A DNA stretch of 64,000 nt from Erodium maritimum (taxonomy: Eukaryota; Streptophyta; Magnoliopsida; Geraniales; Geraniaceae). Under the pieces are notes generated by a model. The model did no database searches. It was given only the letters and a program-made list of their open reading frames with translations, and was not told where the DNA came from. Every line of letters begins with the position of its first letter. Position 1 is the first letter of the stretch. The position numbers and the translations under genes are program-made. Shown here one piece after another: positions 3,661-63,735 of this stretch. The stretch covers positions 64,713,675 through 64,777,674 of the forward strand of contig OY997594.1 in the NCBI GenBank assembly GCA_963921825.1, read 5' to 3'.

Positions 3661-3850
3661 AATTTAAGAGTAATTTTTTAAATTATGAGTTGGAGAGAAA
3701 ATTTAAGACATGGGTAAGAGAGTATGAATTTGATTTCGCAATAAAAAGGTATCGTCTGTAAGAAGAAAGATTTAGGGTTATGGGATTATTATCGATGATT
3801 ATTTTAAATTGTGTTGTATAAAACAAAAAATACTCGATATTTTAAAATAG

Positions 3851-4167
3851 TGTTATGAAATAACTAAATGATAGTAATACTTTTTTACTACTCCGTCTCC
3901 GTGCCTCATAAGAAAGGATAGCATGATTTTATCTTTTCTTGTTGGATCCCAGAAGCTTATCAAAAATTTAGCAGTACAACAAATGAATATTGGATAAAAC
4001 CAACACAAAGGATATAAGATGCAGAAACTCTCTCAGTACCCTCATTTCTATTTTGATTGAACCATACACATACAACACATATAAAGCTATTTATATAGGC
4101 AAGCTTCCATCGCCAATGAAGCTTATCGGGTAAGGAAATGGGTGGGGGCCACCATGATATTATAACA
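3851..4167 (-). repeat. 3' LTR of the non-coding LTR element
   Basis: 317-base copy of the terminal repeat, TG...CA bounded, preceded by AATAG. It pairs with 9244-9559. Confidence 0.92.
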
Positions 4168-4520
4168 CTCCCCATTGGACACCACCATTTACGAATATAT
4201 CAAATGCGCCTTAAGTTGCTTCGTTAAAAACCTACTCAGGAAAACCCGGTGGGGTAACCTATAAGAAAAATAGTGCAACGCGCAAAACGTGCTTCATGAT
4301 GTGCTTGATGCTGCCTCGTTAAAAACATTTCCAATAAAACCCTGTGGGACAAAATTTGGATAGGGGAAAAAGAGTGCAGCGCACAAAATTTATCTCCCCC
4401 TAACTTCAGGCAGGTTACTTTGGTTGTTCGGTTGAGTCAACACATCCTGATCTTGAACATTAACCTCTCAACAAGTGGATGTCGGGAAAGCCATACTGAG
4501 TAGAGTGCTTCTTCCATTTA

Positions 4521-7500
4521 CTCACTTCTGGTGAGCTGGACGTGCATAACGGCTGCCTCGTTAAAAACCTTTCCAAGAAAACCTCGTGGGACATAACCTG
4601 AATAAGGGAAAAAGAGTGCAACGCACGGAAACATACTCCCCCTGACTGTCGCTCCCCCTGAAGACCGAATGAGTAATCTAGGCTACTTGCAAATTCAACT
4701 CATATTTTCTTATACTCTGACTTTCCCAAAACCGATGTTACCCAAATATCAGTGAACCAAACCTGCAGGATTTTCACTACGTGATTCTGATTGGCGTCAA
4801 TCTCATGACTCTTCTGGAGTTCATGATAAAAGGATTTCAGAGCACTTAGTGGTTGTAACCAAAACACTGAACACTGAAAACTGTCTTCCCAAACTATAAG
4901 CGTCCTGGGACATGCTTTGCAGATCTGCTTCTTTCTCAAAACCGGTAAATAGTTTCTGAGCTCAAAACTGGCTAGCACATTTACTGCGAATTTTCTATCA
5001 GGCCTTGTACATCATAACGTCTCAAATTTAGATATGGTACTCCAGGACCAAATATCTTTCCATCTCTTTGATACAAGTGAGATCTTCTTTAGGACCTAAA
5101 TATCGATCGATCGTTTGAATATTAAGTCGAAAGCGCTTCAGGCGTTTCTTAACATATGCATATTTATGGATCCATTTGAAAATACGCTCGATCTTCAGGC
5201 CAAGACAATACTTAACCATCAAAGCTTTCATTTGAAAGTCTTTCTTTAGACATATTGCAGTTTCAAGGACCTCTTCAAGAGTCCATATATTATCGACCCA
5301 CACTGCTTACTGAGTACATGGTTTCTCATACCATGTCTTATTACCCCATGCAAATCAAACCCTTCAGAGAGTCATTTCTCTAGATAATCATAAATCCTTT
5401 GGGGAATGACATTGCTTCTGGCAATTTAAATTCTCAAGGGATTTGCTTTAGACAAGTTGCAATGTTTTAGGCAATGCATGAGTTTTGCTTCAGGCAAACT
5501 ACAATGCTTCAGGCAATGCAGGTCCTTCGGGGACTTTTATAAATGTTGGAACTTAAAAGTACCATTAGCAGTGGGTACATATATCTAATATACCATGGTA
5601 ATCACACTACACAACTTTATCAAAAGTTGGCTTTAAGTCATTTGAGTAAAATACCTTTATAAAGCCACTTTATATTCAACATCTTTGTTTTCTCATTCAT
5701 CTATATCCAGCTGGTAAAATATCCTTCGATGTTTTGATCATGATTTTGAACATTGGACATTATACCAATAAGTCAATTCTTCTGGAATGACATTTTCTCG
5801 TATTGGCCAAACATGTCTTTAAATGACAGTAGTCAACACCACATGGTTCAATGTCAAAATCATCTAGCATTTCAATCATGGTAATAGTAATGCCTTTATC
5901 AATGGAACCGATTTTCGGTTCCATGATTCTCAATATGTGAGAACGATATGCATTTGCACATTACTTTGTTCTTCAGGAACCAACGCTTTTGTTTGAACTG
6001 ATATTCTTCTTAAATCAATTTCGAGAATAAATTTATATCACGCTCATTCACGATCTGCCTTTTTGGCAGGAGCAATTGATTCTTCTGGAATCAACGGTTT
6101 TTCTTAAACTGAAATTTTTGTTGGAACAGATTCCGATAGTGAAGACATATTATGTTCATCATTAAAATTCGCCTAATTCTTTCTCTCTTGGAATAAATAT
6201 TATTTGATCCAAGTACCCTCTCACGCTTCTGGCGTGTACAAGAGGAGTCCTTCCACACTTTCACAAAGCTTTTAAATCTTCATTGGTATCTTGGTATGAC
6301 CTTATTATTTTTATAAATGTGTATAGCATTCGGTCTGCAACATTTTGCAAATGTGCAAGCTTATATACTTTAGGTACATATGATGAGACAAAAATAATTC
6401 TTCAAAGAACATTTCATGCCTTACTTCAGGAAGGTCTTCTCTCTTCACTTCAAGATGAACGATATCGTCTCATCAAAATGAAACTGACAGATCATGCAAT
6501 AAACATCTTGTCCTTCAGGGACTCAAGATACCAGCATTGTCAAGGCGGTCGATTTTATAAAGCGTATCAACAACTTAACAAATGCAATGTTACACGATAA
6601 GACCATCTTCTGGATGCGTCTCTTATAAAGTAAGTATTAAGATACCATAAGACCATCTTCTGGATGCGTCTCTTATAAAATAAGTATGGTCACATCCTCA
6701 TGAATTCTGTACTTGAGTAATTAAAATTCCATACTAAAATTGTCTTTGGATGGTTGGACCACAAAATATATCTTGTGAGAAGCCACACAAAATACTTCAT
6801 AGGACATTTGAACATTCTAGTTCTCAATGATCCTACGCATCATCTTCGATCCAAATGATCAATACGAATACGTCGACATATAAAACATTTTCATTATCGA
6901 ACTTCTGGTTCAATATAGCGTAGGCATTGCCTGTTCTTGTATAACTAATGTATCTTAACATTTAGATTTCTAGTACTTGTTTTTCACCATGTTTATCACT
7001 TCTGGTGATACAGAGAAACTCAGTCTCATTTGTGGTCTCAATATGATCGTTGACACTGAGTAGATGCTTCTGGATCTACTTTCATATAGAGCATTTTCAA
7101 CACTAAGTAGATGCTTCTGGATCTATTTTAACATTGAGTAGATGCTTCTGGTCCTACTTTCATATAGAACATTAATGCTTAACTTCATTGTAAACCTCAA
7201 TGACATGGTAGGTCTTTCGGAAACCATAGTTTTACCAATGGCACCCGTATTATGTAGTGATACACATATCATTTTCATTTTTGCACATGAATTGATCGCT
7301 TCAGGGATCAATATATAATAGACAAAATGAACCATGATCATATCGGCTACATCGTTATATAGAGTCGTCTGAGACATTCAATTCATTTAGATCTTCCGGA
7401 TCTAGGTCATCAATCAGACTTTATCTCTATCACCCTTTTCTTTTACCCTTGTTTGATGTTTGATGTAAAGCCATCAAAACATTTAGTCATACAACATGTA

Positions 7501-8943
7501 ATTGACCAATGATCTCTCATGTCTCATATATAACATATACTTTCATCTTTTTTGGGAGCTCAACTCTATAAGCAACTTTCTTTGTGCCTTTCGTATTTGT
7601 CCCACTTCGGGTGGGATTTTGAGATCGAAAGTTATAATTCATGCTAGAATGATCGAGGTCTCAATATGTTCCGAGTCTAGAATTACCATCATGATTTATC
7701 TCATTCACTTCTGGGAATGGTATACTGCCAATATGGCGAGTTTGATGGTTTTTGAGTAATAACTCATTATTTCGACGATGAGTATACAGGAAATTAACTT
7801 CGAATATATAATTTCGTATTTCCCGACATTAATATTGTTGGATCATATGAGATGAATGAACAAATAGTTTCTCTATAACCAAACTAATATGGCGATGTTT
7901 GGAAATAATATATCCTTGAAATGAACTATCAAGTTTATATGAACTTCTGGTCATATAAATAACAAGATTGCACCTTGAATTAGAATATCAAGCTCTGTGA
8001 AATTTAAGTCGGTATGAACTTCAGTCCATACGACATTTAGAAATGGTGCACATATAAATTTCCACTTGAACGATGGTGCAATGAACTTATCTCAAATATC
8101 GTGAAATGTTAAGTCTGTATGAACTTCTGGTCCTACGACATTCAACAATGGTGAACATATCCGTTTCACTGGAACGAATAATTTAATGAACATGTCTTTG
8201 ACGGTTTTGGAACTTCGGATCCAAAGTATCATGATATTTATAAGCTTCGGGTTACAAATATACAACATTTGAATAATCACGATTAGATATATAAAACCAC
8301 ACAATGAGCGAACTCATGGGGTAAACATAATAAACGCGGGAATTAAATATAGGTATAACCGCACAACGAGCGAACTCGAGGGGTATAATAAATATATAAA
8401 TCAAGTATATACATAACCGCACAACGAGCGAACTCGTGGGGTAAGCATAATAAACGCTGAAATTAAATATATAAGTATAACCTCACAACGAGCAAGCTCG
8501 TGGGGTAGACATACTAAATATAAATAGTTTCATATAAAATTTTAGGCTTCAGGCATTGGACACAAGTTACAGGCTTCAGGCCAGTGGTTTGAGCTTGTGA
8601 CATTAATACAAGTTACAGGCTGCAAGCCTGTGGTCTATATTCAGCCTTTTAAGGACATGTTACAGGCTTCAGGTCTGTGATTTGTCAATCAGTCATAAAT
8701 ACAAGTATCAAGCTACAGGCTTGTAATTTATCGTTTGATCGTATAGGCCAGTATCAGGCTTCGGGCCTGTGATTTATCATGTGGCCGTAAAAGGAAAAAT
8801 ATCAAGCCCCGGGATTGTAATTTATTATTTGGCCATAAAATCATATATATCATGCCTCGACCATGTGATTTTTCATTTGGTCGTTCAGGCACATATCAAA
8901 CCTTGGCTTACGATTTTTCATTTGGAGCTTCTGGTCTCAAATG
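4521..8943. repeat. Array of short hairpins with a C-TTCNG-G core
   Basis: Throughout the interior of the LTR element, the pentamer TTCTG, TTCAG, TTCGG or TTCCG is bracketed by short complementary arms that differ from hairpin to hairpin. Examples read directly (arms): 4521-4535 CTCAC/GTGAG; 5411-5425 ATTGC/GCAAT; 6076-6094 TTGATTC/GAATCAA; 6222-6236 CACGC/GCGTG; 6994-7010 TATCAC/GTGATA; 7059-7080 AGTAGAT/ATCTACT; 7291-7312 ATTGATC/GATCAAT; 7388-7404 TAGATC/GATCTA; 7600-7616 TCCCAC/GTGGGA; 7934-7959 TTTATATGA/TCATATAAA; 8206-8225 TTTGGA/TCCAAA; 8234-8261 ten pairs with one mismatch. Some have an 8-base unpaired core such as ACTTCTGG or GCTTCAGG. At least 25 such units are visible, spaced about 30-200 bases apart. 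No coding frame runs through them. The function is unknown. Confidence 0.85.
8301..8505. repeat. Four direct repeats forming ACGAG/CTCGT hairpins
   Basis: Four spaced copies of a CACAACGAGCGAACTCGTGG-type unit. The stems are at 8304-8317, 8366-8379, 8424-8437 and 8488-8501. The loop is CGAA in three copies and CAAG in the last; on the minus strand the common loop reads TTCG. In the first copy both arms changed together (ATGAG/CTCAT), keeping the stem. Confidence 0.7.
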
Positions 8944-9243
8944 ATTTGGTTTCGGTATAATACCGTTTCACAAATAATGTTACTAAAATAAATCAATATC
9001 GACAAAGCTTAACACGTAACAAGATTTCAATATGACCATATTTTCTGATGTGAAAGATCCAAAATATTATTTGGCGATCACAGAGCATACTTATATGGTA
9101 TAAAAATCAGATCCAAATAAGTATAGAACGAACACAAATATATTTCACGAGTACCGTTAATAAATAATATCAACGAATAAAATTTATGATAATATGAAAC
9201 TTTATACCTGAACGATCGAACAGAGCTGTTCGTGCTGATAACG

Positions 9244-9559
9244 TGTTATGAAATACCTAAATGACAGTAATACTTTTTGACTACTCCCTCTCCGTGCCTC
9301 ATAAGAAAGGATAGCATGCTTTTATCTTTTCTTGTTGGATCCCAGAAGCTTATCAAAAATTTAGCAGTACAGCAAATGAATATGGATAAAACCAACACAA
9401 AGGATATAAGGTGCAGAAACTCTTTCAGTACCCTCATTTCTGTTTTGATTGAACCAGACACATACAACACATATAAAGCTATTTATACAGGCAAGCTTCC
9501 ACCCCCAATGAAGCTTATCGGGTAAGGAAATGGGTGGGGGCCACCATGATATTATAACA
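9244..9559 (-). repeat. 5' LTR of the non-coding LTR element
   Basis: 316-base partner of 3851-4167, followed by the AATAG duplication. In the element's own direction this is the upstream LTR, so any LTR promoter would read left, away from P450 gene 2. Confidence 0.92.
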
Positions 9560-9662
9560 AATAGAAAATACCGAATATGCCTCTATAATTGTGGGGAAAC
9601 AAATCTAGCAATATAAAAACAATGGGCAGTAATATCCTAATTCATTTGAGGTGTGATCGACC
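9560..9662 (+). promoter_or_regulatory. Truncated upstream region of P450 gene 2
   Basis: Only 103 bases separate the LTR element from the gene 2 start codon. TATAAAA occurs at 9612-9618, about 45 bases before the ATG. The leader motifs shared by genes 1 and 3 (GTGTGAAGAGT, AGTCTCTGT) are absent. Whatever upstream promoter existed is now beyond 3850. Confidence 0.45.
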
Positions 9663-10584
9663 ATGGAATGGGTAGTAATATATTCCGTTTGTTTTATAAC
9701 GACGATATCTGTACCATGCCTTTTCTTGCTCCTCCGGCACAAGTCCACCGGCGCACGGAGGCTTCCACCGGGGCCGCCAGGGTGGCCAATAATCGGCAAC
9801 TTATTAGATATGGGAACACAACCCCACCGGACACTAAACCGGCTCAGAGACAAGTACGGCGGCGTCATATGGCTGAGGCTGGGCTCAACCAACCATGGCC
9901 ATCGTCACCGCCAAAGCCGCCGCCGAGTTCTTCAGGAACCACGACCTGTCGTTCGCGGACAGAGCCGTCAACGAGACCCTGCGCGTTCACGACTACTACA
10001 AAGGCTCCCTGGCGATGGCTCCGTACGGGTCCTTCTGGCGCGTGCTGAGGCGGCTGGTGACCGTGGACATGCTCGTGACGAAGCGGCTCGGCGAGACGGC
10101 CCCGATCCGGAGGAAGTGTATGGACGACCTGGTGAGGTGGGTCGAGGAGGAGGCGGAGCGAGTGAACCGCACGGCAGGCCGTGAGACTGGGGTTCATGTC
10201 GCCCAACTGGTGGGGATCACGCTGTTCAACATGATGGGGAACCTGGTGATGTCACGTGACCTGATGGACCCGCAGTCCGAGGTGGGGCCGCAGCTACTGG
10301 AGGCCATCGACGGCCTGTCGGTGTGTGCCGGACGCGCCTACTTGGCCGATTACTTTCCGTGGCTGAAGAGGTTCGACCCGCAGGGCCTGAAGAGGTCCAT
10401 GGAGAAGACTATGGGGAGGGCTCTCGACATAGTTTCAACTTTTATAGACCGCCGCCGTCAGGAACTGCTCGCCGGCGCCGGGCCGCGGGGGAGGGATTTC
10501 TTGCAGGTAATGTTGGAGTTTCGTGGGGTGGGAGATGAAGAACCAGCTCAGTTCTCGGACAAGGAAATCAACATATTTATTCTG

Positions 10585-12821
10585 GTAAATTCTAAATCCT
10601 CCCGTACAATTAAATTGATGATGATATATTTTGCGCATAAGTATAGATTTGGTTTATCAATACAAACTCTACAAGGTGTAAGAAAGAATTTGATCCCTAT
10701 TGTTTTGTTTTGAAAATGATATGTTTCATTCCATCAATTTTAATTATTACAGCAATCAACATCAAGTAAGAGAAAACTAAAGTATAGGTTTGTATCCCCT
10801 GTCGAAATAGACAGGTGATCTGGTATATTAGGTTGAAAATAAAAGCATTTACAAAAAAAATATAAAAGGGAGGCGACAACTGAAGATTAACACAACAACA
10901 CGAGTCCAAGGGTCTAAATACTTAAAAGAGTGGTTGTCTTTGCTCACAGAGAGGGGGGATAGAAAAACTCGTCCCAAGAAACATACCCTCCCAAAGAGGG
11001 CAAAGAAAAGGTTGGGAGGTAGAAAAGTCAAGCATCCCAAGCGATAAACACCTATCATAATTTCTGGTGATTCTGGTGATCTTTAATGGAGACCACAGTG
11101 AGCTTCGCTTGTATGTTCTTCAAGATGGCCGGGTTGGGCATCGGAGTTGAATTTGTAGGAGAGGTAGAGGTGAATGCTCGGTGGCGAGAGTCTGGTCTTC
11201 ATCAAAAAGGGAACATGTTGCTTGTTGCTTGTTGCTTGGGAGGCCTTAGATTGCAAGAGAGGCTGCAAGTGTGGGTTGAGGACAAGATTAAGGGCATGTT
11301 GGGGGTCGAGAGCAACGATGACGATATTGTAGATTTGGTGTCCCGTGACGAGGAGGTCGATGAGATGGAGGATTTATTTTATGGTGGGGAGAGTTATGAG
11401 TCCATGGTCGAGACAGAAGGCAGTGAGGATGTCGGGGAAGATGTTGGAGGAGAAAGAAGTTATGTGGAGCTTTGGCGAGAAGAGAAGAAGAAGAGAGGCA
11501 AACCCAGCGTTATCAACACCAGCCTCGGAAGAAAAAGAGAGAGTGAGAGACGCAGACAGAGAGAGCACGTAAGGGAAGGGGTTCAAGACTAGACTATTGT
11601 TTGAAATTAATTAGGGGATAATCGTAAAAATTGATATTTGAGGGATATTTTCAATAAACATATAATACTTTAGATACATTTTTTTTTACAAAAAGTCTAC
11701 TTTAAGGTAAGGGTAAAAGTGGAATTTTTAAGACATTGAACGACATGTGCATGACACGTGATCCATTTTAGACAAAAAAAATATAAATTTTCATTGACGG
11801 TAAAAATAAAAGAAAATATATGATATCAATTGTTATGGCTTTTTGTTACATAATCATTATATGTGAGTCACAAAAGAATAGCGGGGAGTAGTCCCTTCTT
11901 GGACAAACTACAACTAATCCTCAAAAAGAGCCCGAGACATAGACATGCTTTTGAAGTGGGAACAATGACAATTAAAACAACTAAAAAAACAATTAAAATA
12001 AAAAGGGAAGCTACTACGAGAACAAGAATGAAAACGAAAACTAGACCTAAAACCAAAACCATCTACTGCTCAACCTGAGCAAGACCACTATGGTATGAAA
12101 GCTTATAGGTTTCCCAGAAGAAACCATTGATCTCGCCTAGTTTAGGGAATAAGCGCATGAAATGGTGGAGAAGGACGATCAGCCGCAACCGATCGTGATG
12201 GGGGCAGAACGCTTCTCCTTCCTAGCGTCTAGCTTCCCTACAGGTGCCTCATTGGACATGGCGACATTGCATAGCAAACCTCGCCTGATTCGCCTAATTA
12301 TTTGGGCCAACAAAACCCCATCATGTTGTGTCCATGTGTTCGCTCTTGGCGTTAAAGGATAAAATGGAGGGGTGGTTAACACTGCCACAAGGAATTGGAA
12401 ATCGTCGTACAGTGTGCAGCATCGTTCCTAAACACCTAGATTTCGGTGGAGGAACGCCATGCTAGCTTCCGGAGTCAGTGTCTCACAGAAAACAAATTTA
12501 TACCCTAACAGTTCCAGGACATGATTTGCGGATCAGGAGAATAAGAGGGGTGAAAGTGGGCGTAGAGAGGGGGCTGTCGGAGACGATTCCAGAGGAGACA
12601 AAGAGGGAGGAGTACGACATGACGGTCGAGAAGGACCAACTGGAGAGGTGCACCACCGACGGCGCAGATGTGTGTGCGATCCAGAGGGATCCCAGAGGAG
12701 GGTGGGTTCTAAACCCTAAGCTCTAATTATCCCATTATAGCATCCTAAGTCGAGAAAGGAACGGGGAATTTTTAAATGTAAATTAAGGATTTTTTAATAG
12801 CAAAATCATATGTATTTTATT
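10585..12821. other. Left part of the expanded intron, unassigned
   Basis: Contains an open frame at 11086-11592 (+, 168 residues) with an acidic centre and a basic, charged end, but no recognisable domain. Around 11860-12730 there is GC-richer DNA whose minus strand has a short stretch reading M-S-W-N-C near 12525, a phrase common at the start of plant LINE ORF2. That is too little to name it. It is probably inserted DNA, because the paralogous introns are about 100 bases. Confidence 0.35.
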
Positions 12822-16660: not shown

Positions 16661-17432
16661 TGTGTATATATTAAATGAGATAGAATTGACATACAAATCT
16701 TTTGATGGAAAATTTATTGTGTTCAAGCTCCAGTAATAATCTACTTGGAAGCCGTTAATCTGGTAAGGGTGTATATCAAGAACCACCATTAGAATGTTTA
16801 TTTTATTATATAAAATACAGGAAATGTTCATGGGTGGTGCGGAAACAAGTCGGTCCACGACAGAATGGGCACTGGCGGAGCTACTGCGGTACCCAGAGAC
16901 AATGACCAAAGTGAAAGCCGAGCTAAACCGAGTTGTTGGGCCGAAGAAGAAGGTCGAAGAGAGCGACATCGAGAACCTCCCATATCTGCAGGCTGTGGTG
17001 AAAGAGTCGATGCGGCTATACCCTGTGATCCCGCTCCTTCTCCCGCGAAGCGCAATTCACGACACCAATTTCATGGGATACGACATACCTAAGGGCACGA
17101 CAGTCTTCGTGGACGCTTGGGCCATCGGGAGAGACCCCGAGGCTTGGGACGACCCTTTGACCTTCAAGCCTGAGAGGTTTCTGGGGTCGACTGTTGACTA
17201 CAGAGGCCAGCATTTCGAGTTCATTCCGTTCGGAGCTGGTCGTAGAATCTGCGTCGGCATAGCGCTGGGTCACAGGCTTGTTTACCTGATCCTCGGCACA
17301 CTGCTGCACCAGTTCGATTGGGAACTTGATTATTCTGTGACTCCAGAGACGTTGGACATGAACGATACGTTGAGCATGAATGCTAAGAAGCTCAAGCCAT
17401 TATTGGCGGTTCCTAAGAAATGCGTATCATGA

Positions 17433-28804: not shown

Positions 28805-29315
28805 TGTAGGGAATATATGTAAGTATATTGACGATAAACAAATTCAAATAAACAAATTAAAATAATAGAATAACCTTTACCGATCAGCTAGCTTACTGAT
28901 TACGGAATAGAAAATTCGGGTTTAGTCGAGTCCAGGTACTCCTGTCTCCTTAAGACACTTGACTGCCCCGTATGGGCAACGGTCTCCCAAGATACAACGA
29001 CTAACGTCAGCGAACTCAACTCCGTGTAGAGAAATCACCAGGCTAAGGAAGAATGAAAAACGATATGTGAAGTGTTTGGAGTGTATTTGTGATGTGTTTG
29101 AAGTGTGTAGAATATGATTTAGGAAGTTGGTATTTATAGGCTCTCTAATAGGGATAGAAAGGTAATTTTATGGGGTAGCTAATACCATAAAAGCCTTTCA
29201 TTAAGAGGTCATGGCCAACCAACTAATGAATCATATTTAAAACCATAAAATCAATTTAATATCAAAAATCACATTTAAACCCATAAAATCACATTTTGAC
29301 CACATTTTTCCAACA
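28805..29315 (-). repeat. 3' LTR of the second non-coding element
   Basis: 511-base terminal repeat paired with 32823-33342; bounded by TGTAGGG on the left and CCAACA on the right. Confidence 0.85.
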
Positions 29316-32822: not shown

Positions 32823-33342
32823 TGTAGGGAATATAGGTTAGTATATTGACGATAAACAAATTCAAATAAACAAATTATCAAATTAAAATAATAGAATAAC
32901 CTTTACCGATCAGCTAGCTTACTGATTATGGAATAGGAAATTTGGGTTTAGTCTAGTCCAGGTACTCCTGTCTCCTTAAGACACTTGAATGCCCCGTATG
33001 GGCAGCGGTCTCCCAAGATACAACGACTAACGTCAGCGAACTCAACTCCGTGTAGAGAAATCACCAAGACTAAGGAAGAATGAAAAACGATATGTGAAGT
33101 GTTTGGAGTGTATTTGTGATGTGTTTGAAGTGTGTAGAATATGATTTAGGAAGTTGGTATTTATAGGCTCTCTAATAGGGATAGAAAGGTAATTTTATGG
33201 GGTAGCTAATCCCATAAAAGCCTTTAATTAAGAGGTCATGGCCAACCAACTAATAAATCATATTTAAAACCATAAAATCAATTTAATATCATAAATCACA
33301 TTTAAACCCATAAAATCACATTTTGACCACATTTTTCCAACA
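32823..33342 (-). repeat. 5' LTR of the second non-coding element
   Basis: 520-base terminal repeat; contains an extra 9 bases (near 32876) relative to the left copy. Confidence 0.85.
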
Positions 33343-40478: not shown

Positions 40479-41009
40479 TGTTAGAATATATTTAATTGGG
40501 TTATTAAATATAATTATTATCTTCCCTATTATGTGGTCAATTAGAAACCCACACCTTTTAGGAAACGTGTTATTCTAATTAATGGTAATTACCAGTTGAT
40601 TGGTAAAGAAGTCTTTCCTAATTCAATCTCTACTTTGATGAACGGTAGAGATTGAATCCTAATGAAACCCTAATAAGGAATTTTGGTCCTCTCTCTACCT
40701 ATAAATACATGTAACTTATTCCATCATAAGTACTACACAATACATAAACACCTAAAAGAGTGTATAGGAAGGGGAGAGAAACCGAAGTTCATAAGACGAA
40801 CTACGTAGACTTTGATCTCTCATGTAATGTTGGGAGTACGTAGGCAATCCGAGTACGTTCCGGATACAAGTCCCTTATGCCCAACCAAGATCTACTACAA
40901 GTGCATCCACAACCATGAATGGAGGTATTCCTGAAACTCTCTACAACTATATATTCTGTGATTGATTGTGATGTTCACGATTTAGGGTTCATGTAAATTA
41001 TAACTTACA
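40479..41009 (+). repeat. 5' LTR of copia element 1
   Basis: 531 bases, TGTTAGAATATA...TAACTTACA. Contains TATAAATACA (about 40700), a plausible TATA box. Confidence 0.93.
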
Positions 41010-47128: not shown

Positions 47129-47659
47129 TGTTAGAATATATTTAATTGGGTTATTAAATATAATTATTATCTTCCCTATTATGTGGTCAATTAGAAACCC
47201 ACACCTTTTAGGAAACGTGCTATTCTAATTAATGGTAATTACCAGTTGATTGGTAAAGAAGTCTTTCCTAATTCAATCTCTACTTTGATGGACGGTAGAG
47301 ATTGAATCCTAATGAAACCCTAATAAGGAATTTTGGTCCTCTCTCTACCTATAAATACATGTAACTTATTCCATCATAAGTACTACACAATACACAAACA
47401 CCTAAAAGAGTGTATAGGAAGGGGAGAGAAACCGAAGTTCATAAGACGAACTACGTAGACTTTGATCTCTCATGTAATGTTGGGAGTACGTAGGCAATCC
47501 GAGTACGTTCCGGATACAAGTCCCTTATGCCCAACCAAGATCTACTACAAATGCATCCATAACCATGAATGGAGGTATTCCTGAAACTCTCTACAACTAT
47601 ATATTCTGTGATTGATTGTGATGATCACGATTTAGGGTTCATGTAAATTATAACTTACA
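47129..47659 (+). repeat. 3' LTR of copia element 1
   Basis: 531-base partner of 40479-41009. Confidence 0.93.
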
Positions 47660-61457: not shown

Positions 61458-62043
61458 AAGGATGTGATTCTATTTGATTTCTCTTTTAAATCCGTGATAA
61501 TAGTTTTTCCGTAGTTTACTCAAAAAGTATACGTACAGAGTAACTGTAGCAGATTACACATAAGTTTAGCTTTAGACTATGCCAGTAAGTTTTTTCGTGG
61601 ACGAAGCGATCTTGTCGGCCAAATGTAGAAATCTGTCGGCCAATAATTTCCTGGACCAACTGGACCGGCGAACCGACAAATAATACACATACGGACAAAG
61701 TTAGGAGATCAATTGGGAATTGTATCAGCTATTCTAAAAAAAAATTCCTTGTTCTCCATACTAGTCAAAATAAGACGGCTTGGTACAGAATATATTTGAG
61801 ATACCGATCATTGTAATTAAAGATTCAACACACAATTAAAGTTTACAGATAAGACATCGTCCGTGTTAGAGGCCACTAAACAAACTAAATTATGCTTCAA
61901 ATATAAAGAACGCTATCACATAAACATAAATTAAAGTTGAACGTTTATATAGCATATTGTTCGGACATCAACCGATACTGTAGATGAAACAAACCAAACC
62001 ACCCTGTTTATGAATTTTAATCTAACACAACCATAGGGGTGAA
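61458..62043. other. Spacer between retroposon D and P450 gene 3
   Basis: AT-rich, no gene or repeat seen. It holds the presumed 3' UTR of the minus-strand P450 gene; no clear poly(A) signal was picked out. Confidence 0.5.
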
Positions 62044-63678
62044 TCATGGCACACTTTTCTTTGGAACTGCAACTAATGAATTGAGCTTACTTGTAGTCAC
62101 ACCAAACTTATCGTCCATGTCCATCTTCTCCCAACCGTCAAGTTCCCAATCAAATTCGTGCAACAACGTGCCCAAAATAAGGTACACTAGCCGGTGGGCT
62201 AGCGCCATCCCAACGCAGATCCGCCGCCCGGCTCCGAATGGAATGAACCCGAAATGTTGGCCTCTATAATCGATCTTGGACCCGATAAACCTTTCGGGGT
62301 TGAAAGTGGACGGGTCATCCCAAACCTCCGGGTCTCGCCCAATAGCCCAAGCGTCCACGAAGACGGTCGTGCCTTTGGGTATATCGTAACCCATGAACTT
62401 GGTGTCGTGAATTGCGCTCCGCGGGATCAGGAGCGGAATCACCGGATGTAACCGCATCGTCTCTTTCACCACCGCCTGCAGATACGGCAGATTCTCGGTG
62501 TCGCTCTCTTCGACCTTCCGGTTCGGTCCCACGACCCGGTTCAGCTCTTCTTTGACTTTTGCCATTGACTCCGGGTGGCGCAGTAGCTCGGCCATTACCC
62601 ATTCTGTGGTCGAACGGGTTGTTTCGATCCCACCAATAAATATTTCCTAAACATACATATAAATAATTAATGAAACAAAATTTGTTAGTCTATATATATA
62701 TGAAGGTGTAACCTTAAATCAAACAAAAGTTGAAGTAAGCATATATACCAGAATAAATATGTTGATATCTTTGTCCGAAAATTTAGGTGGTTCCTCGGTT
62801 CCAACCCCTTTAAAATCCAACATGACCCGCAAGAAATCCTTCTTCTCCGACACGCCGCCGTCGAGCAGTTCCTGGCGGCGGCGCTTGACAAAACTCCAAA
62901 TGAGGTTGAGAGCCTTCCCCATCTCCCTCTCCATGGACCTCACAAGTCCCTGAGGATCGAACCTCTTCATCCACGGCCAAAAGTCGGCCACGTTGCCTTG
63001 ACCGCCAAGCCTCGTCATCACGTCGATAGCCTCCAGGAGAAGTGGGCCCTCCTCCGACTTCGGGTCGATAAGGTCACGTGACAAAACAAGATTCCCCATC
63101 ATGTTGAACAGCGTGAGGCCCACGAAGTGCGCGATCTTAACCCCACTCGCCTGCCCTGGCGTGCGCTTCACTCGCTCCGCCTCCTCCTCGATCCACGCCA
63201 CCATGGTGTCCATGCACTTCCTCCTGATGGGGACCGTCTCGTTGAGCTGCTTCGTGACCAGCATGTCCACGGTCACGAGCCGCCGCAGCACGCGCCAGAA
63301 GGAGCCGTACGGAGCCAGCAGCATGGAGCTTTGGTGGAAGTCGTGGGCGCGCATGGTCTCGTTGACGTTCCGGTCAGCGAAGGCCATGTCGTGGTTCTTG
63401 AAGAACTCGGCGGCGGCTTTGGCGGAGACGATGGCCATGGCGTTGGTTGAGCCGAGCTTCAGCCATATGACGCCGCCGTACTTGTCTCTCATCTGGTAGA
63501 GTGCCCGGTGTGGCTGTTTTCCCAAGTCCAACATGTTACCGATTATTGGCCACCCTACCGGCCCAGGAGGAAGCTTCCGGGAAACGCCGGTGAGTTTCTT
63601 GTGCCGGAGAAGTAAGAGGAGGCATGGTAGGGACAAAACTGCAATAAACCACACTGAATAGTTTGTTACCCACTCCAT
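62044..63678 (-). CDS. Cytochrome P450 (CYP76-like), intact, two exons
   Basis: Paralogue of the P450 at 804-2417, on the opposite strand. Exon 1 is 63678-62749 and exon 2 is 62646-62044; the intron (102 bases, phase 0) starts GTATAT and ends GTTTAG. The start at 63678 (MEWVTNYSVWF) is chosen to match gene 1; an in-frame ATG three codons upstream exists. Product 510 residues: membrane anchor (about 9-24), hinge PPGPVGWP (37-44), C-helix WRVLR, I-helix GGIETTRSTTEW (315-326), E372/R375 in KETMRLHP, PERF and heme loop FIPFGAGRRICVG with Cys454. Role as for gene 1: ER-bound monooxygenation fed by P450 reductase, substrate unknown. All catalytic motifs are intact, so it is likely functional. Confidence 0.93.
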
Positions 63679-63735
63679 TGTTAACACAGAGACTACTCTT
63701 GACTCTTCACACTCATCACCTATATATATATAACC
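63679..63735 (-). promoter_or_regulatory. Core promoter and 5' leader of P450 gene 3
   Basis: On the minus strand a TATATATATA box (63721-63730) is followed by GGTGATGAGTGTGAAGAGT, AGAGTAGTCTCTGT and TTAACA before the ATG. This is the same order and spacing as upstream of gene 1. Confidence 0.65.

Follow-up and report, generated by a model that had tools for sequence, protein, structure and literature searches.

In a 64,000-nt window of Erodium maritimum contig OY997594.1, a long terminal repeat (LTR) retrotransposon at 3851-9559 carries an array of 29 short hairpins whose stems are unrelated in sequence and whose loops all read CNGAA closed by a C-G pair. Here and below, the window is the whole stretch of DNA analyzed, coordinates are positions in it, and the internal region of the element is 4168-9243. 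It is well supported that this motif, C[CNGAA]G, is under selection: it occurs in one orientation, along the internal region, and independently of the reading frame and of the stem letters. On balance, we favor the reading that it serves as a cis-acting RNA tag, dispersed and with a loop read by its sequence, that is carried by one Ty1/copia clade and probably bound by Gag. The hairpins also lie within gag and pol of coding relatives, which is an addition to what the first-pass annotation of this DNA had observed.

Enrichment and conservation of the hairpins

The enrichment was evaluated against 500 dinucleotide shuffles of the internal region, with stem score thresholds of at least 4 and at least 5. 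On the plus strand, where the core reads TTCNG, 51 cores were present versus a shuffle mean of 19.9 (sd 4.1). Among them, 30 had a stem score of at least 4 (shuffle mean 0.66, maximum 4) and 22 a score of at least 5 (mean 0.27, maximum 3); the reverse strand had 10 TTCNG, none with a stem score of at least 4. In the rest of the window, a score of at least 5 was reached at 6/232 and 4/208 TTCNG. When pentamers were ranked as loops without bias, TTCTG, TTCAG and TTCGG took the top ranks, and stems of at least five pairs around other loops numbered 56, versus a mean of 45 in shuffled sequence when all loops are pooled. The first-pass annotation had described a dense array with a constant core and called for its arm complementarity to be compared with dinucleotide-shuffled sequence; the array was borne out with stems far above that control, and its extent had been placed correctly (first core 4526, last core 8929).

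The positions of the primer-binding site CGTTATCAGCACGA and of the polypurine tract place the sense strand of the element on the minus strand, where the unit reads C[CNGAA]G, as had been proposed. For the heptamer CCNGAAG, there are 34 sense occurrences and a single antisense one; a stem is present at 29, and N is A in 17 heptamers, T in 12, C in 4 and G in one. No hairpin of this type was found in antisense within the internal region or in either LTR, and three occur, on either strand, in the other 58 kb of the window. A special role for the UUCG-like loop of the plus strand, suggested earlier, did not hold up, TTCTG being the commonest core. The stems (mean score 5.4) are unrelated in sequence yet paired, since the arms match within a site (mean 4.26) and fail to match when exchanged with those of other sites (mean 1.39, maximum 2.19 in 2000 swaps), in agreement with the original description. 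One unpaired base stands beside the closing pair in 8/30 stems on one side and in 1/30 on the other, which explains the 8-base cores that had been noticed along with the 5-base ones.

With the first 1501 internal bases as query, 1067 candidate places were obtained; scoring covered 40 of them and gave 44 matches, comprising the window's own and others at 79-94% identity; L018, L021 and L022 retain open gag and/or integrase stretches. Twenty copies were compared with the window copy. Stems differed at 404/6112 letters (6.6%) and loops at 118/2181 (5.4%), versus 7681/66453 (11.6%) in the remaining sequence. At the TTCNG letters of the heptamer sites, the first T changed in 0.4%, the second T in 1.2%, C in 5.0%, N in 12.5% and G in 7.8%, and the closing pair in 2.2 and 3.4%, for a background of 9.5% at T and 17-19% at CHG letters. 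By these per-position rates N changes at the background rate and its neighbors are held, so that N provides an internal control for the choice of sites. Such a pattern is what a sequence-specific reader of the loop would leave. That the hairpins serve or evade silencing, as Dicer-like substrates or small-RNA decoys, or RNA editing, is quite unlikely: the stems are short, and loop letters conserved singly are not a known need of silencing substrates, although a correlation between small RNAs and predicted hairpins is reported for maize transposons (PMC10760457).

Hairpins in coding relatives and non-coding derivatives

A protein search for coding relatives, in which 150 of 2158 candidate places were scored, revealed several frames of 1194 aa. 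Six relatives, picked for open frames and divergence, were taken as lineage A (L035, L036) and lineage B (L037-L040). L035 has a gag of 347 aa and a pol of 1194 aa; Pfam recognized Retrotran_gag_2 in L035 gag and gag_pre-integrs, rve, SH3 and RVT_2 in L036 pol, and the pol order in the coding relatives is Pol_BBD (below its cut-off), gag_pre-integrs, rve, SH3 and RVT_2. In L035, L036 and L037, the gag and pol frames lie about 100 T-rich bases apart with stops between them, and pol is perhaps spliced or reached otherwise. At several sites, lineage B also shows natural loop variants, such as CGGGAAG and CCAAAAG, on kept stems.

The hairpins number 20 in L035, 19 in L036, 6 in L037, 5 in L038, 7 in L039 and 3 in L040; none was found in antisense in L035, L036 or L037, and three of those in L035 lie upstream of its gag frame. 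C[C.GAA]G came first in an unbiased ranking of 5-letter loop classes in each of L035-L039. Synonymous shuffling, which preserves the protein, lost most hairpins: pol of L035 and of L036 has 14 each versus 1.6 and 1.55 in the shuffles (maximum 5, 0/500 reaching 14 in both), and the pol stretch of L037 has 4 versus 0.44 (maximum 3, 0/500 reaching 4). The numbers in gag are small, 2 versus 0.07 in L035 (reached by 1/500) and 1 versus 0.07 in L037 (36/500). At 12 of the 19 L036 hairpins, the heptamer is found at the aligned site in at least one non-coding copy compared, and at four in the window copy itself.

CCN GAA encodes Pro-Glu, with N at a fourfold-degenerate site, and this dipeptide is repeated in the linker between integrase and reverse transcriptase (RT), which raised the question of a coding artefact. 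Within recognized protein remnants, the cores are distributed over the codon phases as 80, 55 and 31 (166 instances, not independent), with 55 in the Pro-Glu phase and 111 in the others; in pol of both L035 and L036, 8/14 cores are in that phase and 6/14 are not. Because the cores fall in three codon phases, Pro-Glu codons are insufficient, and both the loss of hairpins on synonymous shuffling and the presence of hairpins without any frame in non-coding copies argue against them. We therefore regarded this explanation as extremely improbable and rejected it as the sole cause; such codons favor some sites and do not explain the set. The earlier claim that something besides coding keeps the pattern is supported by the spread over all phases and by the synonymous shuffles.

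A by-product of template switching or of palindrome correction, in reverse transcription or replication, had been raised in part by the first-pass annotation, and matching arms of unrelated sequence and tandem units near the 5' leader would fit it. However, copying errors should not preserve a particular loop in which a single letter varies freely, and neither the orientation of 29 to 0 nor the 14 hairpins inside an open pol frame of a coding relative would be expected from them. Such an origin is very improbable, and template switching as the main cause was rejected on the orientation bias and on the conservation of the loop letter by letter.

A number of results weigh against the proposed RNA tag. 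Change in the 20 copies was measured against the window copy and not on a tree. Compensatory changes, anticipated at the outset, are present but few: 24 of 35 two-sided changes keep pairing and 11 break it, compared with 2-12 kept and 8-20 broken in slid controls, the best of which (-2) keeps 12 and breaks 8. Two-sided Watson-Crick change involves 8 pairs and 23 cells, with 5/8 pairs changed in one copy only and 13/23 cells contributed by the single pair 6897-6913, so that covariation is thin. This pair, in a pre-integrase hairpin located in the codons for TMNQKF (aligned in 25/27 sequences, 17 distinct rows), is A-U in 13 rows and U-A in 4; its covariation score of 0.162 was matched by 0/500 shuffles and slid positions gave at most 0.066, and the two outermost pairs of the hairpin fail in 13 and 9 of the 17 rows. 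Covariation in the 46-nt units of the 5' leader (G-C 7, A-U 4) is weak, because 40/500 shuffles reach its score of 0.227 and sliding by +1 gives 0.210. As two-sided changes are few and concentrated, the case for pairing depends mainly on how many unrelated stems have arms that match, rather than on covariation. When the hairpins were folded in context, the closing pair had a probability above 0.5 at only 17/29 in the window element, 9/20 in L035 and 3/6 in L037 (controls 4/78, 6/79 and 9/79), and antisense folding was similar (14/29, 8/20 and 3/6). Synonymous conservation between the lineages (L036 versus L037) was not raised at hairpin codons (46/65 versus 607/870, p=1), the heptamer is present in one or more of four B copies at 7/20 lineage-A sites, and at many other lineage-A sites B keeps the stem with a different loop.

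The strand test adds to these points. G-U versus A-C changes were neutral at 32 versus 26 events, of which 6 versus 6 are shared; the distinct window hairpins gave 3 versus 3, and a count over non-independent hairpins leaned the opposite way, 19 versus 41. The lack of a sign of selection on the sense RNA strand in these counts, together with the CNG inside the loop, would suit a motif that works as DNA, either as an extruded hairpin or as a CNG methylation target. We consider this quite unlikely, as the two A letters of the loop, which lie outside CNG, are its best-conserved part, change at the loop C and G is lower than at other CHG letters, and a single orientation is used.

The density of the hairpins differs between groups. 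Per kilobase of internal region there are 0.9-1.2 in lineage B (L037-L039), 3.5-3.7 in lineage A, 3.8 in L021, and 4.6-8.0 in 11 non-coding elements (the window element and ten copies, 24-39 hairpins each). This count omits L014, L015, L017, L018, L020, L022, L024, L027, L028 and L040; the nine copies among them have no clean LTR pair, other insertions or truncation, and some are hairpin-poor (L024 2, L027 8, L015 9). Among the elements counted, the non-coding derivatives have lost their proteins yet keep hairpins at higher density than the coding relatives.

Architecture of the element and its surroundings

Judged from its sequence, the element is a decayed member of Ty1/copia and not foreign non-coding DNA, and the 763 Mb genome has many copies of it (Table 1). 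The original description of a non-coding element without gag and pol was right in that no open reading frame of at least 120 aa lies within 4168-9243, but gag, integrase and RT remnants are present in minus-strand frames. With open stretches of the relatives as queries, tblastn recovered gag zinc-knuckle, pre-integrase, integrase-end, linker, RT and RNase H-end remnants in copia order, and the gag and pre-integrase remnants contain stops. The features of Ty1/copia are all found, namely gag, integrase before RT, LTRs, primer-binding site and polypurine tract, with the domain order seen in coding relatives and as remnants in the window element. So are the structural features of large retrotransposon derivatives (LARDs), an LTR element with a long internal region and without coding capacity. 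Core 5137 sits in the KRLKRF codons of RT and not in the Pro-Glu phase, the site of core 6903 is aligned in 25/27 sequences with the heptamer intact in 19 of these 25, and the hairpin at 7709 has an orthologue in coding gag. The junction stretch at the polypurine tract was matched by 34/40 scored places at 84-96% identity.

Table 1. Features of the retrotransposon and its hairpin array, in window coordinates.
Feature	Position	Strand	Basis and remarks
Target-site duplication AATAG (5 bp)	3846-3850 (left), 9560-9564 (right)	none	Seen in flanking sequence
LTR, 3' LTR in sense (317 bp)	3851-4167	minus	95.6% identity to 9244-9559; no C[CNGAA]G hairpin inside
Polypurine tract, sense CCAATGGGGAG, then TGTT of the LTR	4168-4178	minus	Sequence; coding and non-coding relatives have a similar motif
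RNase H end and 3' UTR remnant	4242-4481	minus	tblastn match to L021 stretch
Hairpin array (29), CNGAA loop with C-G closing pair (sense heptamer CCNGAAG), stem sequences unrelated	4525-8934	minus	Motif scans and shuffles
RT remnant (AVWVDNIWT...), hairpins at cores 5137 and 5194	5031-5306	minus	tblastn, 91% over 92 aa to L021 stretch
Integrase C-terminus / linker remnant	6178-6371	minus	tblastn
Protease / pre-integrase remnant with widely shared hairpin (core 6903)	6727-7069	minus	tblastn
Gag zinc-knuckle remnant, hairpins at cores 7606 and 7709	7494-7777	minus	tblastn; in-frame stops
Four tandem units of about 60 nt; three fold as ACGAG/CUCGU or AUGAG/CUCAU hairpins, loop UUCG or CUUG	8287-8535	minus	Repeat and fold analysis
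Tandem units of about 46 nt in sense 5' leader	8528-8934	minus	Repeats; 2/29 counted hairpins here (8759, 8928)
Primer-binding site CGTTATCAGCACGA	9230-9243	minus	Sequence; exact in 14/27 sequences examined, several of the 27 truncated
LTR, 5' LTR in sense (316 bp)	9244-9559	minus	Repeat comparison

In the remaining 46-nt units, the loops are altered or the stems weaker. The second hairpin type, in the units at 8287-8535, is present in 14/21 sequences (window and 20 copies); its ACGAG/CUCGU and AUGAG/CUCAU stems form a compensatory pair, and L037 and L039 of lineage B have GUGAG-UUCA-CUCAC. Within or beside the RNase H remnant, repeats were found in the 3' UTR at 4310-4405 and 4552-4647 (81%), with a third partial copy at 4204 (region 4204-4660). 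The primer-binding site CGTTATCAGCACGA would be complementary to part of a plant tRNA-Ile, namely the anticodon arm of one having inosine as first anticodon base, which suggests a half-tRNA primer by analogy with Drosophila copia; no tRNA gene was found within the 64-kb window.

In the window element and 12 copies (L010-L014, L016, L019, L021, L023, L025, L026 and L029), the LTRs align from one element to another only over short stretches. The internal regions of these 13 elements are 84-94% identical, and their own LTR pairs mostly 95-99.6%; among the places scored, the window LTR has only two relatives elsewhere, at 75-89%. This divergence may reflect exchange of LTRs between elements, or LTR turnover around an internal region that selection keeps constant. 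Around the element, cytochrome P450 genes or fragments are clustered at 746-2522, 9660-10713, 16794-17432 and 61946-63732, two of which flank it, and relatives of one of them are named CYP76A-like. Two pairs of direct repeats, 40479-41009 / 47129-47659 (98.9%) and 28805-29315 / 32823-33342 (95.8%), are likely LTRs of other elements.

Possible reader of the loop and related systems

In the mechanism that we propose, a short stem of any sequence would present the C[CNGAA]G loop, with N free and sometimes one unpaired base beside the closing pair, to a factor that would read the loop and closing pair and ignore the stem letters. As non-coding members make no protein, the hairpins would function in cis, most simply on RNA, and here on the genomic RNA of the Ty1/copia clade. 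The factor would come from the coding relatives, Gag with its zinc knuckle being the likeliest candidate. Sites that are weak singly but numerous would jointly secure entry of the RNA into the particle, a role that dispersed packaging signals have in some RNA viruses, and a non-coding copy richer in sites would then have an advantage in competing for the particles of its helper. Coding and non-coding members share the primer-binding site and polypurine tract, and these, together with the hairpins common to both, are consistent with LARD-type mobilization in trans by a coding partner.

The same RNA tag might instead be read by a host RNA-binding protein acting in the export of unspliced RNA from the nucleus, in RNA stability or in storage granules. 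All the motif-level evidence would fit this equally well, and the hairpins are spread along the internal region, outside the LTRs. Nevertheless, the rest of the window, including other genes and another copia element, has only the three hairpins in 58 kb, so that the motif is not common in this window sample, and we hold a host reader to be somewhat unlikely. Gag is favored because a fixed loop on any stem, repeated, is the anatomy of dispersed packaging signals (PMC6281560), and because Ty1 Gag in competition prefers RNA bearing its own structured packaging signal (PMC8396678); Gag binding and packaging are what we infer by analogy. Packaging had been among the roles raised in the first-pass annotation, and it is still the most probable of these.

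Several known systems were compared with the array. In packaging-signal-mediated assembly, for example of phage MS2, many dispersed stem-loops vary in sequence around a common recognition motif, and MS2 also has a bulge that counts (PMC6281560). Many dispersed stem-loops with a common loop motif and variable stems are likewise found here; those systems are RNA viruses with coat proteins, whereas here the carrier is an LTR retrotransposon, with C[CNGAA]G as the putative recognition loop. The packaging region proposed for Ty1 is one region near the 5' end with a pseudoknot (PMC8396678), unlike an array along the RNA. LARDs such as Sukkula are LTR elements with a core domain and no protein products, with well-conserved RNA structures reported (PMC7215508). 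The window element resembles them in the lack of protein products but keeps recognizable gag/pol remnants, and the accessible part of that account describes no repeated constant-loop hairpin (PMC7215508). Maize copia LTRs are rich in predicted hairpins (PMC10760457, citing Bousios et al. 2016), which concentrate in the LTRs, whereas the window element has none there. Non-autonomous pararetroviruses share noncoding regulatory sequences with a partner (PMC5491270); a defective element thus keeps cis signals common with a coding partner in both cases, but theirs are intergenic regions shared by recombination and not a dispersed hairpin motif.

No description of such a hairpin array was found in the literature searched, outside which subscription journals and preprints mostly fell. 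Retrozymes are plant non-autonomous retrotransposons that depend on RNA structure, namely hammerhead ribozymes; an Rfam scan of 3700-9700 on both strands with E up to 1 matched no ribozyme family, and its one weak match, an Enterococcus sRNA, was far below the cut-off. The Smaug/Vts1 recognition element also has a stem of any sequence, with a CNGG-type loop, whereas all 29 window hairpins have CNGAA. No relatives were found in plasmids, or by protein scans of viral and genome contigs outside the Erodium genome; a 17-letter pattern matched one viral contig, which was judged by eye to be an unrelated phage-like chance match and rejected. The window's other copia RT had no match listed to the window element, L010, L018, L021 or L022.

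To our knowledge, the packaging signals of plant copia elements are little defined. A sharp motif of seven letters, one of them free, on any stem, with natural doses of about 1, 3.6 and 6 per kb, makes it directly testable how non-coding LTR retrotransposons get their RNA chosen for the particles of another element. We suggest, as a tentative generalization, that LTR retrotransposons may carry a genome-wide hairpin code, in which tens of stem-independent C[CNGAA]G sites overlapping gag/pol would be read by their own Gag and the RNA packed by many weak contacts, and that parasitic copies may have shed their genes and multiplied the code to out-compete the helper. If true, this would add LTR elements to the RNA viruses in which dispersed packaging signals occur.

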